The notes beneath the pieces are model-generated. The model saw only the letters and a list, made by a program, of their open reading frames with translations. It did not search any database and was not told the origin of the DNA. A DNA stretch of 34,121 nt, taken from positions 1 to 34,121 of IMG/VR virus record IMGVR_UViG_3300043427_000608. One strand, written 5' to 3'. Position 1 is the first letter of the stretch. Each line of letters opens with the position of its first letter. The stretch comes from a virus. Both the position numbers and the translations under genes were made by a program. Below are positions 22,862-28,215 of this stretch, one piece after another.

Positions 22862-23086
22862 TCAATCATCACCATGGTTCGGCAGTGTAGTTACCAAACC
22901 CACAAAATTTAGGTTCATTTCAGGGTCAAGCCCACAATTATAAAAGTGGCCCGCTTGATCGATGGCGACCTTCAATCCTTGCGTCATGTTACCGCCTCCG
23001 ATCAATTCCAGAATTGACCTTTGCTCTGGGCTTAAATCCAGTTTAAAGTCCGTTTGGGTTCGGTTTGGGTTTATCTTGTTTGCCAT
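22862..23086 (-). CDS. Small protein (74 aa), unknown
   Basis: A 74-residue protein, MANKINPNRTQTDFKLDLSP, then EQRSILELIGGGNMTQGLKV. The helical segment around residues 19-40 (EQRSILELIGGGNMTQGLKV) looks like a small DNA-binding or dimerisation helix pair, resembling plasmid regulator fragments, but this is weak. The ATG lies 44 bases inside the upstream resolvase gene, with GAGCAGTTGA before it. Its last codons form the second copy of the TCATCACCATG repeat. Confidence 0.55.
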   Translation of the reverse strand: MANKINPNRTQTDFKLDLSPEQRSILELIGGGNMTQGLKVAIDQAGHFYNCGLDPEMNLNFVGLVTTLPNHGDD

Positions 23087-23540
23087 TCAACTGCTCACGC
23101 CAATAAAGTGCGATTAGTAATGCCTCGGCCCTGTTTCCGTCTTTCTTTCTGGTTAACTTTGCCTCGGGCCAAAATGATCGGGCAAGGTCTAGGCTTTCGT
23201 TTTTATCGCTTGTTAAATGAAAATACTTTTTCCATTTCTGAGGGGTTACCAAGTGGAAAGGGTAATTTGTTAATTCAGCGACTGCACTGATAACGCCGAC
23301 TGCCCTGCCAAACTGAAAAGATGATGCAACCCCTTGCCCCGGCATTGAATGCACTGATTCCATACATATCTCTGCCCCTTCCCTTGGGTCAATGCACCGC
23401 AATATCATGTTTTTGAATACGAGGGGCAATATATTTTTGTCTTTATGCTCAATCATAAAAGAGTCCAAATAATCGCCATTTGAATCCAATGCACCAACTG
23501 CGCCGCTTATGCTGCCAGGGTCAAGCCCGATCCAGACCAT
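23043..23540 (-). CDS. RuvC-like Holliday junction resolvase (165 aa)
   Basis: This 165-residue RNase H-fold nuclease begins IGLDPGSISGAVGALD with the first catalytic Asp7 in DPG. The second acidic residue is Glu61 in CMESVHSMPGQG. A C-terminal KKDGNRAEALLIALY block (Asp134, Glu139) matches the DG.AEALLIA pattern of phage and bacterial RuvC-type enzymes. Phages use such enzymes to resolve branched DNA before packaging. The ATG overlaps the end of the upstream frame (TAATG). High confidence in the family. Confidence 0.85.
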   Translation of the reverse strand: MVWIGLDPGSISGAVGALDSNGDYLDSFMIEHKDKNILPLVFKNMILRCIDPREGAEICMESVHSMPGQGVASSFQFGRAVGVISAVAELTNYPFHLVTPQKWKKYFHLTSDKNESLDLARSFWPEAKLTRKKDGNRAEALLIALYWREQLNGKQDKPKPNPNGL

Positions 23541-23782
23541 TATTGCGCTCCTTCATTTGTTGAATTAAGTCCTGGGTTATCCCTCTCCACAAATGGGTAG
23601 AACAACTCTCTAATTCCTTGGCCCTGTGCCATGCGTGTGCCTTCCACCCAGGTTGTTTTGCAAGGTGCACAAGATGGGCTAATGTCTCCTGATATAACCA
23701 AGGCTCTGTTAACAAGGTACTGCGGGACGGCAAGTCCTTGCTTTCGTTGTTCAAGTATTTCATGGGCTTGGGTTTTGTTCAT
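23521..23782 (-). CDS. Small phage protein apparently split by a +1 frameshift
   Basis: Two overlapping frames cover this stretch. The first starts at 23782 (ATGA overlap with the upstream stop): MNKTQAHEILEQRKQGLAVP, then QYLVNRALVISGD, and ends at 23540. The second runs to 23521 and contains LAHLVHLAKQPGWKAHAWHR then AKELESCSTHLWRGI. From memory a single protein family has the first N-terminus followed by the second C-terminus, which would need a +1 shift near 23687. It may be a sequencing error, a broken gene or programmed frameshifting. The conceptual protein is about 86 residues. The product would be a helical protein of unknown function. Confidence 0.5.
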
Positions 23783-24276
23783 TTTGTCATCTTTTCTTTA
23801 AAACCTTGATAAAAATCACTACTGTCCATCAATTTAAAAAGACCGAAACCTTCTTCAAAATCAACGGTATATCGCTCACAAATGTAGTCGGCATATTCCA
23901 TTTCAAGTTGAGATGTTCTCATTGCTGCCTCAAATTCTTGCTCAGTCATGGGAACCTTTGCAATTTCAGCGGCTGCGCGGGTGATTGCTAGGCGAGTGGC
24001 TTCAGCAGTGTTAATGCCCGTTCTCACAAAAACCATAGGTGTTTCTTCTTTAAACCGCACCTGCACATTCCCTTGATTGATGGTGATTTTCATCTCCAGC
24101 TTCACCGCTAGACGCAGTGCATCGCCATCATCTTCAAGGGGGTTCCATGGCTTTGCTTCAAAGATGTTAAATCCTGGCGGCAAGCGAGTGCAGTTACGCC
24201 AAACGCCATTGGGGTCTTTTATCGCGTTGATTCTCGCCCCTTTTGCAGCCAACTCTATCAGTTCACTATCAGTCAT
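23779..24276 (-). CDS. Phage ABA-sandwich-type protein with extra C-terminal module (165 aa)
   Basis: Residues 1-105 carry MTDSELIELAAKGARINAI, then WNPLEDDGDALRLAVKLEMK and ATRLAITRAAAEIAKVP, the pattern of the 'phage ABA sandwich' domain of small phage proteins. Residues about 108-165 form a separate module (MTEQEFEAAMRTSQLEMEYA, then DYICERY, GLFKLMDSSDFYQGFKEKM). It is clearly homologous to the whole C-terminal half of the protein at 25402-25635. The domain function is unknown. The ATG lies 12 bases after the methylase stop, with GTAGGGTAAATACTT before it. Confidence 0.7.
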   Translation of the reverse strand: MTDSELIELAAKGARINAIKDPNGVWRNCTRLPPGFNIFEAKPWNPLEDDGDALRLAVKLEMKITINQGNVQVRFKEETPMVFVRTGINTAEATRLAITRAAAEIAKVPMTEQEFEAAMRTSQLEMEYADYICERYTVDFEEGFGLFKLMDSSDFYQGFKEKMTK

Positions 24277-24287
24277 AAGTATTTACC

Positions 24288-25058
24288 CTACTTGCTTAGG
24301 ATTTGCCAAGCGGTTGCCGCGCAGAGGGGCACTTGTCCATTTCCAATGGCTTTAAGTCTGTCCACCCTAGCGGCCACCCCATTAGCCACTCGACCCACAT
24401 TGGGTTCAATTGACCACCAGCTTGCGCTGCCAAAGTCGGTGTGTTGTGCTCCGATTCGCTGGGAGAATTCGTTTCTTTTGCGTTGTGCGCTGTCGGTGTC
24501 GGCCAAGTTCCTTTTCTCATTGCTGACTTGCGGCTGTTGCTCCCACCATTCAAGCCTTGCGTTGTAGGCGTTGGCAACAATCCAGATTCTGTCCCTCTGA
24601 TGGTTTGCGCCAACATCTGCTGCTCCCAGCACTCCCCATCTCGCATCAAACCCCATTGTGGCCAAGTCTCCAAGAACTCGTCCAAGTCCCCTAGAAGTGA
24701 GCATTGGTGAGTTCTCCACAAAGACGAATCGGGGTCGTACTTCGTGAATGATGCGCGCCATTTCTCCCCACATTCCGCTTCGTTCTCCATCAATTCCTGC
24801 GCCCTTTCCTGCGGCACTGATGTCTTGGCAGGGAAAGCCGCCCGATACGACATCAACAATTCCTCTCCACGGCTTGCCATCAAAGGTTTGTATGTCATCC
24901 CAAATCGGGAAAGGCGGGAGAAGTCCGTCATTTTGTCGGGCGCACAGTACGCTTGCTGGATAGGGTTCCCACTCGACTGCACAGACTGTTCTCCATCCAA
25001 GCAGTTTTCCCCCAAGAATTCCTCCACCAGCACCTGCGAAAAGAGCCAACTCATTCAT
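24288..25058 (-). CDS. Cytosine-5 DNA methyltransferase (256 aa)
   Basis: This 256-residue Dcm-type enzyme has motif I LFAGAGGGILG at 6-16, motif IV GGFPCQDIS at 73-81 with the catalytic Cys77, motif VI VENS at 114-117, motif VIII QRDRIWIVA at 154-162 and motif X RLKAIGNGQVP at 234-244. The target-recognition region between VIII and X is short, about 70 residues. It would transfer a methyl group from AdoMet to cytosine, most likely to protect phage DNA from host restriction. No restriction gene is nearby. It overlaps the upstream gene by ATGA and contains a second long frame (next entry). Confidence 0.9.
   Translation of the reverse strand: MNELALFAGAGGGILGGKLLGWRTVCAVEWEPYPASVLCARQNDGLLPPFPIWDDIQTFDGKPWRGIVDVVSGGFPCQDISAAGKGAGIDGERSGMWGEMARIIHEVRPRFVFVENSPMLTSRGLGRVLGDLATMGFDARWGVLGAADVGANHQRDRIWIVANAYNARLEWWEQQPQVSNEKRNLADTDSAQRKRNEFSQRIGAQHTDFGSASWWSIEPNVGRVANGVAARVDRLKAIGNGQVPLCAATAWQILSK
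24296..25054 (-). CDS. 252-codon frame nested inside the methylase gene, possible dual coding
   Basis: The frame starts with ATG four bases after the methylase start and stays open for 252 codons to 24296, so it is almost fully nested. It encodes MSWLFSQVLVEEFLGENCLD, then KYDPDSSLWRTHQCSLLGDL, TWPQWGLMRDGECWEQQML, SGLLPTPT and LNPMWVEWLMGWPLGWTDLK. From memory this W.T.QCSLL/TWP..G..R.G.CW/PTP/LMGWP.GWTDLK pattern is a database family of phage proteins that also occurs outside methylase genes. That would make both frames real. Other frames here also lack stops, so composition could explain part of it. Confidence 0.5.
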   Translation of the reverse strand: MSWLFSQVLVEEFLGENCLDGEQSVQSSGNPIQQAYCAPDKMTDFSRLSRFGMTYKPLMASRGEELLMSYRAAFPAKTSVPQERAQELMENEAECGEKWRASFTKYDPDSSLWRTHQCSLLGDLDEFLETWPQWGLMRDGECWEQQMLAQTIRGTESGLLPTPTTQGLNGGSNSRKSAMRKGTWPTPTAHNAKETNSPSESEHNTPTLAAQAGGQLNPMWVEWLMGWPLGWTDLKPLEMDKCPSARQPLGKS

Positions 25059-25405
25059 TGCCGCCTTAATTGAGCCAAACGCTCTTTGATGTGATCGGGC
25101 ATAGGAGAGGCTTTGGCAATGTCTGCCTTGATCTTGGCTAGGGCAGGGTCTACAAGCGGTTTAAACGCCATTTCAGGCACTTCTGCGCCATCCCAGCGTT
25201 GTTGGTTCAGATACACCAAAGGGGCAGGGATAAACGCCCCATTTGCCTTTAGCCACTGCTCTGTGGTCTTCATCCAGGCTAAGTGCTTCATTATCTGGTC
25301 TGCTTGGGTATCGCAGTAGGACTTGTCCCAAACCTTCTTACAAGCCGATTTAGCCCCTTTTCTGGGACTGCTAGGCCATGCCTTCCAAAAGTCTTCAAAC
25401 ATCAT
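25055..25405 (-). CDS. Replication-protein C-terminal-like domain (116 aa)
   Basis: A 116-residue protein, MMFEDFWKAWPSSPRKGAKS, then HLAWMKTTEQWLKANGAFIP and APLVYLNQQRWDGAE. The FW.A.P..PRK..K..C...W...F.PAPL.YLNQ.RWDG pattern is the one found at the C-terminus of many phage replication-initiation or helicase-loader proteins. Here it stands alone with no N-terminal winged helix, so it may be a split or minimal replication factor. It overlaps both neighbours by ATGA and lies upstream of the methylase. Confidence 0.7.
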   Translation of the reverse strand: MMFEDFWKAWPSSPRKGAKSACKKVWDKSYCDTQADQIMKHLAWMKTTEQWLKANGAFIPAPLVYLNQQRWDGAEVPEMAFKPLVDPALAKIKADIAKASPMPDHIKERLAQLRRQ

Positions 25406-25635
25406 TTGTCACCCCACATGATATGTTCTTTGAAATCCTCATAGAGTTCGCCTCTCTCCATCAATCGGATTAGCATCTCTCCATTGCCAACATTTCTGCG
25501 CTCCATGATGTACTCAGCATACTGTTGATCGAGTTCATACCTGTTCATTTTGTCCTCAAACTCTTCTTCAGACATAGGTTCTCCAAGGGTGGATAGACTG
25601 AGTATCCTTCCCTCTCCAGACTTGTCAGTGTTCAT
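25402..25635 (-). CDS. Small protein (77 aa) homologous to the C-terminal module of the 24276 gene product
   Basis: A 77-residue protein whose residues 20-77 (MSEEEFEDKMNRYELDQQYA, then EYIMERRN, IRLMERGELYEDFKEHI) align with the C-terminal module of the ABA-sandwich protein. The shared pattern is EFE..M...EL...YA.YI.ER....L..LM......FKE. TAATAGGAGTCAATAA precedes the ATG, a strong ribosome-binding site with the recurring leader. The two copies probably arose by duplication and fusion. Function unknown; helical protein-protein contact is plausible. Confidence 0.7.
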   Translation of the reverse strand: MNTDKSGEGRILSLSTLGEPMSEEEFEDKMNRYELDQQYAEYIMERRNVGNGEMLIRLMERGELYEDFKEHIMWGDK

Positions 25636-25648
25636 TTATTGACTCCTA

Positions 25649-25819
25649 TTAAGATTGAAAAACTAAAAAAGCCCCAAGTGCGCTTGACGGGTTTGTTCGC
25701 TTATACATCTGGCCTTGTTTTCCACCGTGTACCAGATGCTTCAACAGTCGCCAAACCAACGCTGTTCGCCTTTTGCCCTTGGGTGTGTAGGGTGCGGTGT
25801 TTTCTTCCAAGCCGTCCAT
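25649..25819 (-). CDS. Possible small basic protein (56 aa)
   Basis: In a 380-base stretch without a clear gene, this frame runs from ATG 25819 to TAA at 25649: MDGLEENTAPYTPKGKRRTA, then LVWRLLKHLVHGGKQGQMYK. It ends exactly where the leader TAATAGGAG of the next gene begins, and it lies downstream of a promoter-like sequence. The ribosome-binding site is weak (AGCAGAGCG). Alternative frames on both strands overlap it. It could equally be an untranslated leader. Confidence 0.35.
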   Translation of the reverse strand: MDGLEENTAPYTPKGKRRTALVWRLLKHLVHGGKQGQMYKRTNPSSALGAFLVFQS

Positions 25820-25972
25820 GCAAACGCTCTGCTATCGTGTGGAGTACGATCAAGAACGCAAAAGGCCACTTACTACTGCGCTCCAGTGATTGCCCCACTG
25901 TCCCTTACGGGTAAACGCATGAGTAAATGGCCTCATGTTTCGTCTATGCGGGGCAATCGCTTTGACGAACGA

Positions 25973-26002
25973 AATGTACACCATAGAAAAACCCGCTGTC
26001 AA
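25973..26002 (-). promoter_or_regulatory. Sigma-70-type promoter reading left
   Basis: On the minus strand TTGACA (26002-25997), 18 bases and TACATT (25978-25973). It lies directly downstream of the AGGGAAAACACCTA element at 26004-26017 and upstream of the small gene(s) 25649-25402. Same hexamers as the promoter at 20253, which makes both more believable. Confidence 0.55.
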
Positions 26003-26003
26003 G

Positions 26004-26017
26004 TAGGTGTTTTCCCT
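26004..26017 (-). promoter_or_regulatory. AGGGAAAACACCTA element (minus strand copy)
   Basis: An identical 14-base copy of the element at 26592 and 27455, here in reverse orientation. It overlaps the last base of the Cys-rich secreted gene's stop codon and ends one base before a -35 hexamer. A bound regulator would sit against the promoter at 25973-26002. Confidence 0.6.
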
Positions 26018-26169
26018 TAAAAACAGTTTGTTGTGCAATTGCCATAGGCATAACAACAGGTTGTACAAGTGACGATTCGCCCACCAGACATGATGGTGTG
26101 AGTCGTACACGATGCCCAAACCATAGTCACTGCCAAACTCAACCAAACCCCAATAATTGCCTTTTTCAT
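26017..26169 (-). CDS. Small secreted Cys-rich peptide (50 aa)
   Basis: A 50-residue protein that begins with a signal peptide (MKKAIIGVWLSLAVTMVWA). It continues SCTTHTIMSGGRIVTCTTCC, then YAYGNCTTNCF. The repeated CTT and paired Cys after the signal point to an exported, disulfide- or metal-stabilised peptide. I recall similar CTTHTIM.GGR...CTTCC....CTTNC peptides in phages and bacteria of the Betaproteobacteria, all of unknown role. WASC is a poor lipobox, so export may be by ordinary signal peptidase. The ATG overlaps the upstream stop. Confidence 0.65.
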   Translation of the reverse strand: MKKAIIGVWLSLAVTMVWASCTTHTIMSGGRIVTCTTCCYAYGNCTTNCF

Positions 26170-26540
26170 GCTTGCGCTCCTTTGTGATAAATCAAATTGT
26201 CGCCAAAGCGACTGGGATACTTCAGAAAATCATAGCAACCCTGCCGAAACACATTTCTCCGCAGTTCTTTGCCATCATAGATTTCTTTGACAGACCCATT
26301 CTCAATCCGCATGGCTGCACCACTGATAGCCCGATTCATCTCCATGCGCCCGTACTCAGTCAGATGCCACTTCTCCTGATGGTTGATGACATAGCCGAAC
26401 CTCTCCAGTTCAGGCAAGTATCTTTGATAGTGGAACGATACAGCATTGTTGTCTGTCGCACTGTGGGTCATGTCGAGCATTGACCTGGGGCCGCCTGATA
26501 GGCGCTTGAGAATGGTTCGATGGGTCTGGTTTAAACGCAT
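26166..26540 (-). CDS. Winged-helix DNA-binding protein (124 aa)
   Basis: This 124-residue protein has a winged-helix look: MRLNQTHRTILKRLSGGPRS, then VSFHYQRYLPELERFGYVIN (recognition helix) and WHLTEYGRMEMNRAIS (wing). The arrangement resembles small archaeal and phage transcription regulators. GGAGACAATCAA precedes the ATG. It is the first gene of the minus-strand block and is divergent from the plus-strand recombination block, with an AGGGAAAACACCTA element between them. I infer a regulator of the early genes; autoregulation through that element is possible but untested. Confidence 0.7.
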   Translation of the reverse strand: MRLNQTHRTILKRLSGGPRSMLDMTHSATDNNAVSFHYQRYLPELERFGYVINHQEKWHLTEYGRMEMNRAISGAAMRIENGSVKEIYDGKELRRNVFRQGCYDFLKYPSRFGDNLIYHKGAQA

Positions 26541-26591
26541 TTGATTGTCTCCAAAAACCTCAGTATGATGGGTTTTCTAATTTTATGTACT

Positions 26592-26605
26592 AGGGAAAAC
26601 ACCTA
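26592..26605 (+). promoter_or_regulatory. AGGGAAAACACCTA element in the divergent promoter region
   Basis: Identical to the copies at 26004 (minus) and 27455. It lies in the 134-base gap between the divergent genes starting at 26540 and 26675. No strong -35/-10 pair is visible here, so the element may itself be a phage-specific promoter part, or an operator. It contains the inverted pair AGG/CCT around GAAAACA. Confidence 0.6.
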
Positions 26606-26674
26606 TTCCACGCATCTTTTTTTTGTGCGACAGTCCTATCACTGCTATTTGGCAGTGGTCAACAGGAGTTACAA

Positions 26675-27025
26675 ATGCCAACCGATGAAGAAAGATTTAA
26701 ATACGAGTGCTGGGCGATTGTCCAGGAGTTAGACCCAGAAGACATTGCTGATTCCATTGTGGACAGTGTGGCTCTGGTGGAGGCCATCAAAGCAAACCAT
26801 GCTGAAGATGTTGCAAGCATCGTGATGAACAGAGTAGAACTCAAGGTGCGCCGCAGGGCTGAACTGCGAGTGTTTGATGTTGTCAAGACCCAATGGATTG
26901 ATGACATTGAAGAACTCCAGCACTATCGCAATCTGCGAATTGAACGAGTCCAAAAAGCCCTTGATGAGCGCAAGATCACAGCAGCTAAAATGGATGGCCC
27001 TTTTCAACAAATGTTTGATGAGTGA
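26675..27025 (+). CDS. Acidic helical protein (116 aa), unknown
   Basis: A 116-residue, strongly acidic helical protein, MPTDEERFKYECWAIVQELD, then ESIVDSVALVEAIKANH-like helices and RVELKVRRRAELRVFDVVK in the middle. AACAGGAGTTACAA precedes the ATG, a strong ribosome-binding site. It is the first gene of the plus-strand recombination block. Composition suggests a protein-binding or anti-host factor, but no family is recognised and no enzymatic motif is present. Confidence 0.65.
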   Translation: MPTDEERFKYECWAIVQELDPEDIADSIVDSVALVEAIKANHAEDVASIVMNRVELKVRRRAELRVFDVVKTQWIDDIEELQHYRNLRIERVQKALDERKITAAKMDGPFQQMFDE

Positions 27026-27032
27026 GGACAAC

Positions 27033-27218
27033 ATGAAAATGAAATCACGCTTACAAGAAATCATTGGAGACAATCAAGATGAAACTTTTGACGATTGCGA
27101 TCAAACGAGTCCTATCTTATTTCGAGATTGTGATCTCGCAACCCAGCTTGCCTATCTTGCTGAGAGACAAAATGCCAGCAAGGATGACCCTGCCAACCCT
27201 GGCAATCACCGATCCTAA
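27033..27218 (+). CDS. Small acidic protein (61 aa), one of two overlapping frames
   Basis: ATG at 27033 follows GAGGACAAC (good ribosome-binding site), seven bases after the previous stop. It encodes MKMKSRLQEIIGDNQDETFD, then DLATQLAYLAERQNASKDD. It overlaps by 140 bases a different frame starting at 27079, so only one may be real, or both. The TQLAYLAERQN helix and the coupling to the upstream gene favour it. Function unknown. Confidence 0.5.
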   Translation: MKMKSRLQEIIGDNQDETFDDCDQTSPILFRDCDLATQLAYLAERQNASKDDPANPGNHRS

Positions 27219-27384
27219 ATTTGTCTACAAAAATGCTTCTTGCACAGACATAACTCAAACATTTCAAAAGGCTAAAGATGAGCGACTTCAACGATTACGC
27301 AACGATGCTGATAGCAATCGAACAAAAGACCAAAGCACTGGAGAGCAAGTGTCTAAACAAAAACTACGCAGGGTTCACGGCTGA
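27079..27384 (+). CDS. Basic protein (up to 101 aa) overlapping the previous frame
   Basis: The frame from 27079 (MKLLTIAIKRVLSYFEIVIS) has TTGGAGACAATCAAG upstream; an internal ATG at 27172 (MPARMTLPTLAITDPKFVYK) is an alternative start with GAGAGACAAA before it. The stretch ITDPKFVYKNASCTDITQTF resembles a pattern F.Y..A..TD...TF.. that I recall from small phage proteins, which supports the 3' part. It overlaps the genes on both sides. The shorter form (70 residues) is the more likely product. Confidence 0.45.
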   Translation: MKLLTIAIKRVLSYFEIVISQPSLPILLRDKMPARMTLPTLAITDPKFVYKNASCTDITQTFQKAKDERLQRLRNDADSNRTKDQSTGEQVSKQKLRRVHG

Positions 27385-27490
27385 CATTCAAACAATTCAA
27401 AGCCAACTGACCTTGCTGACGATGTGGATCACACAAGCCCAATGTGAACAAATTAGGGAAAACACCTATAGAATTCTCAACAAAGTCTGA
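27278..27490 (+). CDS. Small helical protein (70 aa), unknown
   Basis: A 70-residue helical protein, MSDFNDYATMLIAIEQKTKA, then LTLLTMWITQAQCEQIREN. AAAAGGCTAAAG precedes the ATG. It overlaps the end of the previous frame by 107 bases. The AGGGAAAACACCTA element lies inside its last 12 codons, so the regulatory element and the coding sequence share bases. It directly precedes the annealase gene. No family is recognised. Confidence 0.55.
   Translation: MSDFNDYATMLIAIEQKTKALESKCLNKNYAGFTADIQTIQSQLTLLTMWITQAQCEQIRENTYRILNKV
27455..27468 (+). promoter_or_regulatory. AGGGAAAACACCTA element before the annealase gene
   Basis: Third identical copy, 58 bases upstream of the annealase start and inside the 3' end of the preceding gene. 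The continuing TATAGAATTC could supply a -10-like TATAGA. This position argues that the element controls the recombination genes. Confidence 0.6.
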
Positions 27491-27525
27491 CACAATTAAA
27501 TCTCACTTTTTAACAGGAGTCCCAA

Positions 27526-28215
27526 GTGAATACAAAGTACGATAAAGAGGCGTTAGTTCTTTCGCCAAAACTAGAGCAAAAAGGTCATTTGGTTGACCGC
27601 AGTGAACTCATAAATGAATTGCTCAAAAAGAATGTCAACGAGCATACAGAGAAGAAAAACAATCTCACATACCTATCATGGGCGTGGGCGTGGGCAGAGG
27701 CTTTAAAGGCCGATTCAAACGCAACATACAAGGTGGAGATGTTTGGAGACAAGTGCTTCATGGACATTAACGGCACTGCAATGGTGTTTGTAACTGTCAC
27801 CATGTTTGGCAAGCCAATGACCTGCCAGTTGCCTGTGATGGACTATCGCAACAAGGCAATTCCAAATCCAGACGCATTTGCTGTTAACACTGCCATCATG
27901 CGTTGCATGACTAAGGCATTGTCGTTGCATGGCCTTGGTTTGTACATCTATGCTGGAGAGGATATCCCCGAAGGTGGCGCAACAATCAAGCCCACAGATG
28001 GAGTCATTGTTGACAAGAACAGGGAAAACATCATTGCGGATGTTGCGATTGCTGTTCAAGATAGATTCGAGGCAAGCGATTTGATCGGGGCTTATGAAGA
28101 ATACCTGGGAATCCATGACCAGGAGGAAAAGGTGGCGCTTTGGGCATTGCTTCCAAGTAATGTCCGCAGCGCATTGAAAAAACATGGTGAATCATTGAAA
28201 GGCTTGAAAGGCTAA
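27526..28215 (+). CDS. Single-strand annealing protein, DUF1071/Sak family (229 aa)
   Basis: This 229-residue protein carries YLSWAWAWAEALKADSNATY, then VEMFGDKCFM, PVMDYRNKAIPNPDAFAVNT and IMRCMTKALSLHGLGLYIYA, the core of DUF1071 proteins, which belong to the Rad52-like Sak group of phage annealases. These bind single strands and anneal homologous DNA during recombination-dependent replication. The start is GTG at 27526 with AACAGGAGTCCCAA upstream. No exonuclease gene is visible nearby; an SSB-like small protein follows immediately. Confidence 0.85.
   Translation: MNTKYDKEALVLSPKLEQKGHLVDRSELINELLKKNVNEHTEKKNNLTYLSWAWAWAEALKADSNATYKVEMFGDKCFMDINGTAMVFVTVTMFGKPMTCQLPVMDYRNKAIPNPDAFAVNTAIMRCMTKALSLHGLGLYIYAGEDIPEGGATIKPTDGVIVDKNRENIIADVAIAVQDRFEASDLIGAYEEYLGIHDQEEKVALWALLPSNVRSALKKHGESLKGLKG

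Follow-up and report, generated by a model that had tools for sequence, protein, structure and literature searches.

Two overlapping frames of a viral cytosine methyltransferase gene probably encode the two halves of one split enzyme

Does a single stretch of phage DNA encode, in two frames of one strand, both a C5 cytosine methyltransferase and a second selected protein, and if so, what is the second protein? The question arises in a viral DNA of 34,121 nucleotides (IMG/VR record IMGVR_UViG_3300043427_000608; hereafter the window), in which a first-pass annotation reported a frame of 252 codons that starts 4 nt past the ATG of a methylase gene and lies almost wholly inside it. Both frames are present at the positions given there (Table 1); we term the methylase frame alpha and the nested, +1-frame protein beta. 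Replication and recombination genes surround the locus (positions 23043-28215). Several plus-strand ORFs also span the gene (24292-25073); these look like chance openings, because antisense frames carry stops in relatives. To our knowledge, long same-strand gene overlaps have seldom been established outside small viral genomes.

Table 1. Features of the alpha/beta locus and neighbouring genes, with positions in the window
Feature	Positions	Strand	Basis or remark
Alpha, C5 cytosine methyltransferase frame	24288..25058	-	256 aa; motifs I-VIII, linker, motif X
Beta, nested +1-frame protein	24296..25054	-	252 aa; 6 stops vs 409 expected in 74 genes; phrog_1008, 5.7e-28
Overlapping starts, ATGAATG	25052..25058	-	beta ATG 4 nt after alpha ATG
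Alpha residues 1-162, catalytic motifs I-VIII	24573..25058	-	selection dominated by methylase frame
Alpha residues 174-229, presumed free linker (VIII to X)	24372..24539	-	pLDDT <50 at 174-176 and 182-229
Alpha residues 230-256 and stop, motif X (RLKAIGNGQVP) and C-terminal helix	24288..24371	-	AlphaFold helix, invariant residues
Beta residues 1-158, N-terminal part antiphase to motifs I-VIII	24581..25054	-	stop count and profile-score shuffles
Beta residues 159-212, two cassettes (LLPTPTTQGLNGGSNSR..., WPTPTAHNAKETN...), presumed target-recognition modules	24419..24580	-	nested-frame coding signature
Beta residues 213-241, GGQLNPMWVEWLMGWPLGWTDLKPLEMDK, presumed motif IX segment	24332..24418	-	fixed fourfold sites
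RuvC-like resolvase	23043-23540		neighbour of the alpha/beta locus
Replication-initiation-like protein	25055-25405		shares 4 nt with methylase start
Sak-like annealing protein	27526-28215	+	neighbour of the alpha/beta locus

The odds of so long an opening at random had been put at about 5 in a million. This figure proved too extreme: when the methylase protein and the gene's own codons were kept, the nested frame of the window gene alone was open in 2 of 2000 synonymous shuffles (mean 4.35 stops), or about 1 in 1000, and the strength of the case therefore lies in conservation rather than in the openness of a single gene. We fetched 80 contigs by methylase sequence, to avoid selecting by the nested protein. 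In 79 of them the nested frame runs uninterrupted from its ATG to at most 17 codons from the methylase end, so that interruption by stops in close relatives, named beforehand as an argument against the frame, was not borne out; the sole exception is L122, with a stop at codon 144. Across 74 distinct genes, 73 from these contigs plus the window's own, the nested frame holds 6 stops where synonymous shuffles predict 409, and 69 genes are free of stops. The third frame of the same genes shows no suppression (1316 stops seen, 1057 expected). The nested 252-codon frame is thus real and is selected as a protein.

The suppression extends to the catalytic part of the gene considered by itself, where 26 nested-frame stops were counted against 228 expected in 87 loci (14 from phages and 73 from genome contigs, 11 of 98 having been dropped). 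Nested-protein patterns were used to fetch the genome loci of this set, which biases it toward an intact nested frame; the 74-gene count remains the main one. Over the same part, which corresponds to the N-terminal part of beta, the nested-profile score exceeds that of all 200 synonymous shuffles in 78 of the 87 loci. The nine others are L006, L010, L240, L247, L248, L250, KFPoly, a Porphyromonas phage and the Paenibacillus phage Shelly, and full nesting is therefore not universal. KFPoly has 4 nested-frame stops in this part, and Shelly carries an annotated "internal gene" at the position of beta.

In many loci, shuffles constrained by the methylase alone still average 60-130 bits against the nested profile, so that part of the distant similarity is passive, imposed by the methylase. 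The suspicion that database hits to the nested protein are mere overlapping translations of methylases is to that extent correct for distant hits, yet most loci outscore every one of their shuffles. This passive component is also what might recommend a view in which the nested frame is no gene and simply follows from the sequence and codon use of the methylase: methylase motifs fix part of what the nested frame encodes, and the opening of a single gene, at about 1 in 1000 here, comes far oftener in loci of high G+C (in L248, 161 of 200 shuffles were open by chance). We give this view almost no credence; for the window's group of relatives it is contradicted by the stop counts and by the nested codon signature of the cassettes, the fixed fourfold sites and the conserved start described below.

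Selection switches frame along the gene. In a frame-blind comparison of 83 genes, using ungapped blastn segments of at least 60 nt and at most 97% identity, divergence at nested codon positions 1, 2 and 3 was 0.067, 0.240 and 0.123 in the catalytic region, where the third position of the methylase is fastest, and 0.098, 0.076 and 0.377 in the cassette region. Because divergence there peaks at the nested third position, the cassettes evolve as beta; the catalytic part is selected as methylase and the middle as the nested protein. Across the cassettes the methylase frame is merely kept free of stops (2 seen and 282 expected in 80 genes, as against 359 and 336 in the third frame); alpha must still be read through. 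The frame-blind test took the place of an earlier comparison of seven cassette families, in which amino-acid differences of 3-22% in the nested frame and 40-67% in the methylase frame were obtained with nested-frame patterns that bias the result toward the nested frame; one further pattern gave zero matches.

Synonymous sites of the methylase were examined as well. The 74-gene set has 70 fourfold-degenerate columns at which the methylase residue is conserved; in 18 of these a single base accounts for at least 95% of the genes, and the sites at alpha residues 219, 221, 222, 224, 227, 229 and 232 are 100% fixed. These seven underlie the pattern P.WV.W..G.P..W of beta. Within 68 more diverse genome loci, 4 of 33 fourfold columns reach 95%, with 100% at alpha residues 227 and 229, and most of the remaining columns are free to vary. 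The check for synonymous-site constraint proposed in the first-pass annotation turned up both fixed sites, at residues 219-232, and the hand-over between frames.

The start of beta is likewise maintained. Its ATG is kept in 73 of 73 distinct methylase-selected contigs. The codon at the usual first position of alpha is ATG in 34 of these, TTA in 12, GTG in 10, CTT in 8, TTG in 7, TTT in 1 and CTA in 1, so that ATG, GTG or TTG stands there in 51 of the 73. Of these 51 contigs with overlapping starts, 44 have a Shine-Dalgarno-like run before the alpha start and 7 lack it. Such a run lies just 5' of the beta ATG in 13 of 13 contigs of the TTA/CTA class, by a loose pattern applied without a chance control, and in the contigs read it sits within an extended N-terminus of alpha. 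In all 9 contigs of the CTT/TTT class, beta begins further upstream, again with M[S/T/A]WL, in other codons. The start signals of beta are conserved independently of alpha.

Alpha matches PF00145 (E=2e-31, residues 4-196), and we take its motifs to be I, IV (PCQ), VI (EN) and VIII (RxR). In 53 alpha sequences P76 C77 Q78, E115 N116, R155 and R157 are invariant, as are G239, G241 and V243 of the motif X part. The AF2 model of alpha (pLDDT 78.5, pTM 0.74) is of low confidence (<50) at residues 174-176, 182-229 and 237-239, and its C-terminal helix, 242-255, is confidently modelled. Aligned to M.HhaI with VIA-align, the model gave Z of 19.6-21.5 over 188 residues, with rmsd 2.1-2.5, for five entries, the remaining M.HhaI entries aligning lower or more loosely; its ends, residues 1 and 256, align to M.HhaI chain residues 12 and 320. 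Alpha thus models as an M.HhaI-like large domain that includes the C-terminal motif X part, and a split of the enzyme here would therefore follow the domain boundary. Between motifs VIII and X alpha shows no conserved recognition domain of its own; this is the segment of low model confidence and other-frame evolution, and its linker DNA is also much of the cassettes and EWLMG segment of beta.

Beta has a significant profile match to phrog_1008 (E=5.7e-28, best over residues 41-200), and the suggestion that it belongs to a phage protein family is thereby upheld; phrog_1008 may itself derive from overlapping-frame sequences. No match to beta was found in Pfam at E up to 1 or in NCBIfam, beta-type proteins likewise drew nothing from these two databases, and a profile search of the PDB gave nothing significant (best E 0.031). 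A small-domain fold of beta is unsupported, because its AlphaFold model is too poor (pLDDT 57, pTM 0.22; only about residues 211-240 exceed 70, with 221-230 best).

More is learned from actinophages, some of which have the C-terminal module of beta outside a methylase overlap, either as a largely separate downstream gene or as an in-frame fusion. In Gordonia phage Gudmit gp58 (461 aa) and Mycobacterium phage Fancypants gp73 (408 aa), the module lies in frame behind the catalytic part of a single chain, with phrog_1008 matches at residues 301-457 (3.6e-49) and 249-407 (1.1e-48), respectively. The stand-alone KFPoly gp77 and Colucci gp83 match phrog_1008 at 1e-95 and 2.2e-91, and it is the common match to this profile that ties these four phages to the window. 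Direct comparison of beta with Gudmit gp58 by hhalign is weak and covers the cassette part only (probability 39.9, 65 columns); that with Colucci gp83 is better but short (92.5, 29 columns). A total of 572 phage records, chiefly of actinophages, match the C-terminus of Gudmit gp58.

In these relatives motif X (GNGV) follows an EWMM segment in the same chain, whether that chain is single (Gudmit, Fancypants) or is encoded by a second gene that overlaps the first by 32-50 nt (Vash, Colucci, Rebeuca) or 173-209 nt (KFPoly, Dylan). The segment EWLMGWPxGW of beta is presumed to be motif-IX-like, since its counterpart precedes motif X in the single chains of Gudmit and Fancypants, where the Pfam methylase model stops short of the C-terminal module. 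The surmise that the nested family also exists without an overlapping methylase thus holds for the C-terminal cassette/EWLMG module. The N-terminal part was not seen without a methylase: a methylase match is present at each of 171 loci, and the nested match overlaps the methylase in the +1 frame at 90 of 90 loci.

This constant +1 phase, shared by the five actinophage pairs, raises the alternative that programmed +1 ribosomal frameshifting after motif VIII fuses the catalytic and cassette parts, the nested ATG being incidental. Single-chain relatives do exist, and one +1 shift would complete a chain of motifs I-VIII, cassettes, IX and X both in the actinophage pairs and in genome contigs L235, L238 and L249, where alpha terminates a little past motif VIII and the nested frame carries motif X. 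In genes of the window type, however, motif X is in frame 0 and the fusion would lack it; moreover, selection acts on the nested frame across the catalytic part as well, and the ATG, the MSWL start and the Shine-Dalgarno-like runs of beta are conserved apart from the N-terminus of alpha. We therefore regard frameshifting as unlikely.

That beta lacks a recognised domain or fold would also suit a protein of separate function (an inhibitor, a regulator or an anti-restriction protein) overprinted on the methylase and standing outside the enzyme. However, single-chain methylases carry the C-terminal module of beta in frame as their own C-terminal part, the phrog_1008 members read adjoin catalytic halves or are fused to them, and no region of alpha is conserved from motif VIII to motif X. 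A separate function is thus very unlikely, and the inhibitor role floated in the first-pass annotation is not supported; the evidence favours the recognition half of the same enzyme. The companion suggestion, that one stretch encodes two proteins, is supported, and the second is most likely a partner of the methylase.

Two selected frames, a hand-over of selection between them, a separately conserved beta start and a module shared with single-chain methylases are best explained if the locus is a naturally split C5 DNA methyltransferase, with its two structural domains encoded by the same DNA in two frames; we consider this very probable. The split relatives (the five actinophage pairs and L235, L238 and L249), the M.HhaI-like model of alpha and the avoidance of methylase-frame stops across the cassettes also favour it. 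Alpha, in frame 0, would be the large catalytic domain, with motifs I-VIII, a sequence-tolerant linker and motif X. Beta, in frame +1, would be the small domain, composed of the N-terminal part, usually one to three exchangeable recognition cassettes and the motif-IX-like segment. Alternative initiation at ATGAATG would yield both chains; these would combine into a single enzyme, with the beta cassettes reading the DNA and determining its specificity. Such an enzyme would probably be an orphan phage methylase that shields phage DNA from host restriction.

The middle of beta usually contains one to three cassettes that open with a PTPxAxD-like sequence and are followed by LNPxWVEWLMGWPxGW. We sorted 184 cassettes into 32 families by a cut that yielded none for one protein and left 86 of the 184 in one loose family. 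That cassettes are modular and exchanged is argued by the 50 combinations found in 83 proteins and by the occurrence of families at different ordinal positions. Of the nine pairs with backbones at least 88% identical, one has no cassette family in common, and among pairs below 70% a family is shared in 1093 of 1562, compared with 2290 of 3403 among all pairs; this comparison does not prove shuffling. In Gordonia phage Shivanishola, gp4 (L261:2021-3055) contains a beta-like block WNPSRMLWETETLSLFS...SETLPTSGMTRNG in frame with FILAHPADA and several PTP cassettes. FILAHPADA resembles motif VIII, and gp4 is perhaps a hybrid of two frames.

On balance we think it probable that the locus represents a widespread class, found in phages and prophages as well as in genome contigs assigned to many bacteria and, by their labels, to a few archaea. 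In this class one DNA stretch would encode both domains in two frames, with cassettes passed between genes as whole units and motifs IX (in beta) and X (in alpha) partly overprinted. In the window, the DNA of the beta segment GGQLNPMWVEWLMGWPLGWTDLKPLEMDK doubles as code for the start of motif X in alpha. Traded cassettes would have to be free of stops in both frames, because the other frame makes of each an interchangeable linker. The series from single chain through short-overlap split and long overlap to full nesting suggests how nesting may have originated. At least 600 viral stretches encode a relative of the nested protein, and 6 plasmid records match it (E up to 1e-3). Three genome contigs, L243, L249 and L251, carry archaeal titles; the host labels of some genome contigs are uncertain, as these are metagenome bins. 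When the gene of Salmonella phage S9-5 was used as query, 4 of 5426 E. coli genomes matched (two at 94.5% and two at 75%), with annotation as a methyltransferase.

The nearest known system in kind is M.EcoHK31I (YGGCCR), whose small subunit is also encoded within the large one, in another frame; the likeness is one of layout, in two polypeptides. Alpha fits a large subunit of this type, with motifs I-VIII and X, and motif IX would fall to beta, judged by position. The accessible part of one source describes both M.EcoHK31I and M.AquI as two-polypeptide C5 methylases and, for M.EcoHK31I, places motifs I-VIII and X, together with the predicted target-recognition domain (TRD), in the larger polypeptide, which leaves the smaller with motif IX alone (PMC3404938). 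The codon signature reported here, by contrast with that prediction as the accessible part gives it, puts the variable region in the small subunit; the prediction thus counts against our reading. Neither modular cassettes nor a wide spread are described for M.EcoHK31I in the same part (PMC3404938). If our reading is true, there are grounds to re-examine the location of its recognition domain.

M.AquI (CYCGRG) is also a two-subunit enzyme, and its layout resembles that of L235, L238, L249 and the actinophage pairs. The window departs from it on two points: alpha retains motif X, and beta lies nested within nearly the full length of the alpha gene. A second frame or gene that carries motif X, as in M.AquI, is seen only in relatives such as those just named. 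Phages SPR and phi3T encode single-chain, multispecific C5 methylases with several exchangeable target-recognition modules. The likeness to the present locus lies in the presence of several modules, which here are in an overlapping frame. The label of phrog_1008 ("DNA methyltransferase", 329 aa) is silent on a recognition subunit or a nested gene. No description of the modular nested form was found among the papers listed by the literature searches, most subscription papers being outside its reach, and the accessible parts of PMC3404938, PMC3439449, PMC11860570, PMC6070908 and PMC6456624 do not show the nested family. As far as these searches show, nested-frame recognition cassettes, modular exchange in two frames, partly overprinted motifs IX and X, the layout series and the wide spread appear to be new.

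An overlap kept across diverse phages and genome contigs would here have a functional logic, the two proteins being halves of one enzyme. If so, the specificity of the family has been annotated in the wrong frame, and the locus would offer a natural modular split methylase, together with a rule, open to testing, for how cassettes can be exchanged when two frames must be kept. Pfam recognises alpha only; with the NCBIfam dcm model, alpha falls short of the cut-off and beta gives no score. In two phage records (L006:2001-2699 and L003:2001-2729), the nested frame alone is annotated, as "hypothetical protein", and the methylase frame is not.

Several loci show irregular frames. Contigs L195, L198, L201 and L203 have a stop in the methylase frame, after motif VIII in the first two and within the catalytic part in the others, and the nested frame is open; these are either decaying copies or truncated forms of alpha. 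A copy from a Gallionella bin (L234:4001-4984) is frameshifted, and its methylase and nested matches switch frame at the same place. In Mycobacterium phage Llama (L256:1805-2564), the methylase is found in two frames by comparison with SG4, and the two pieces are annotated as gp74 and gp75.
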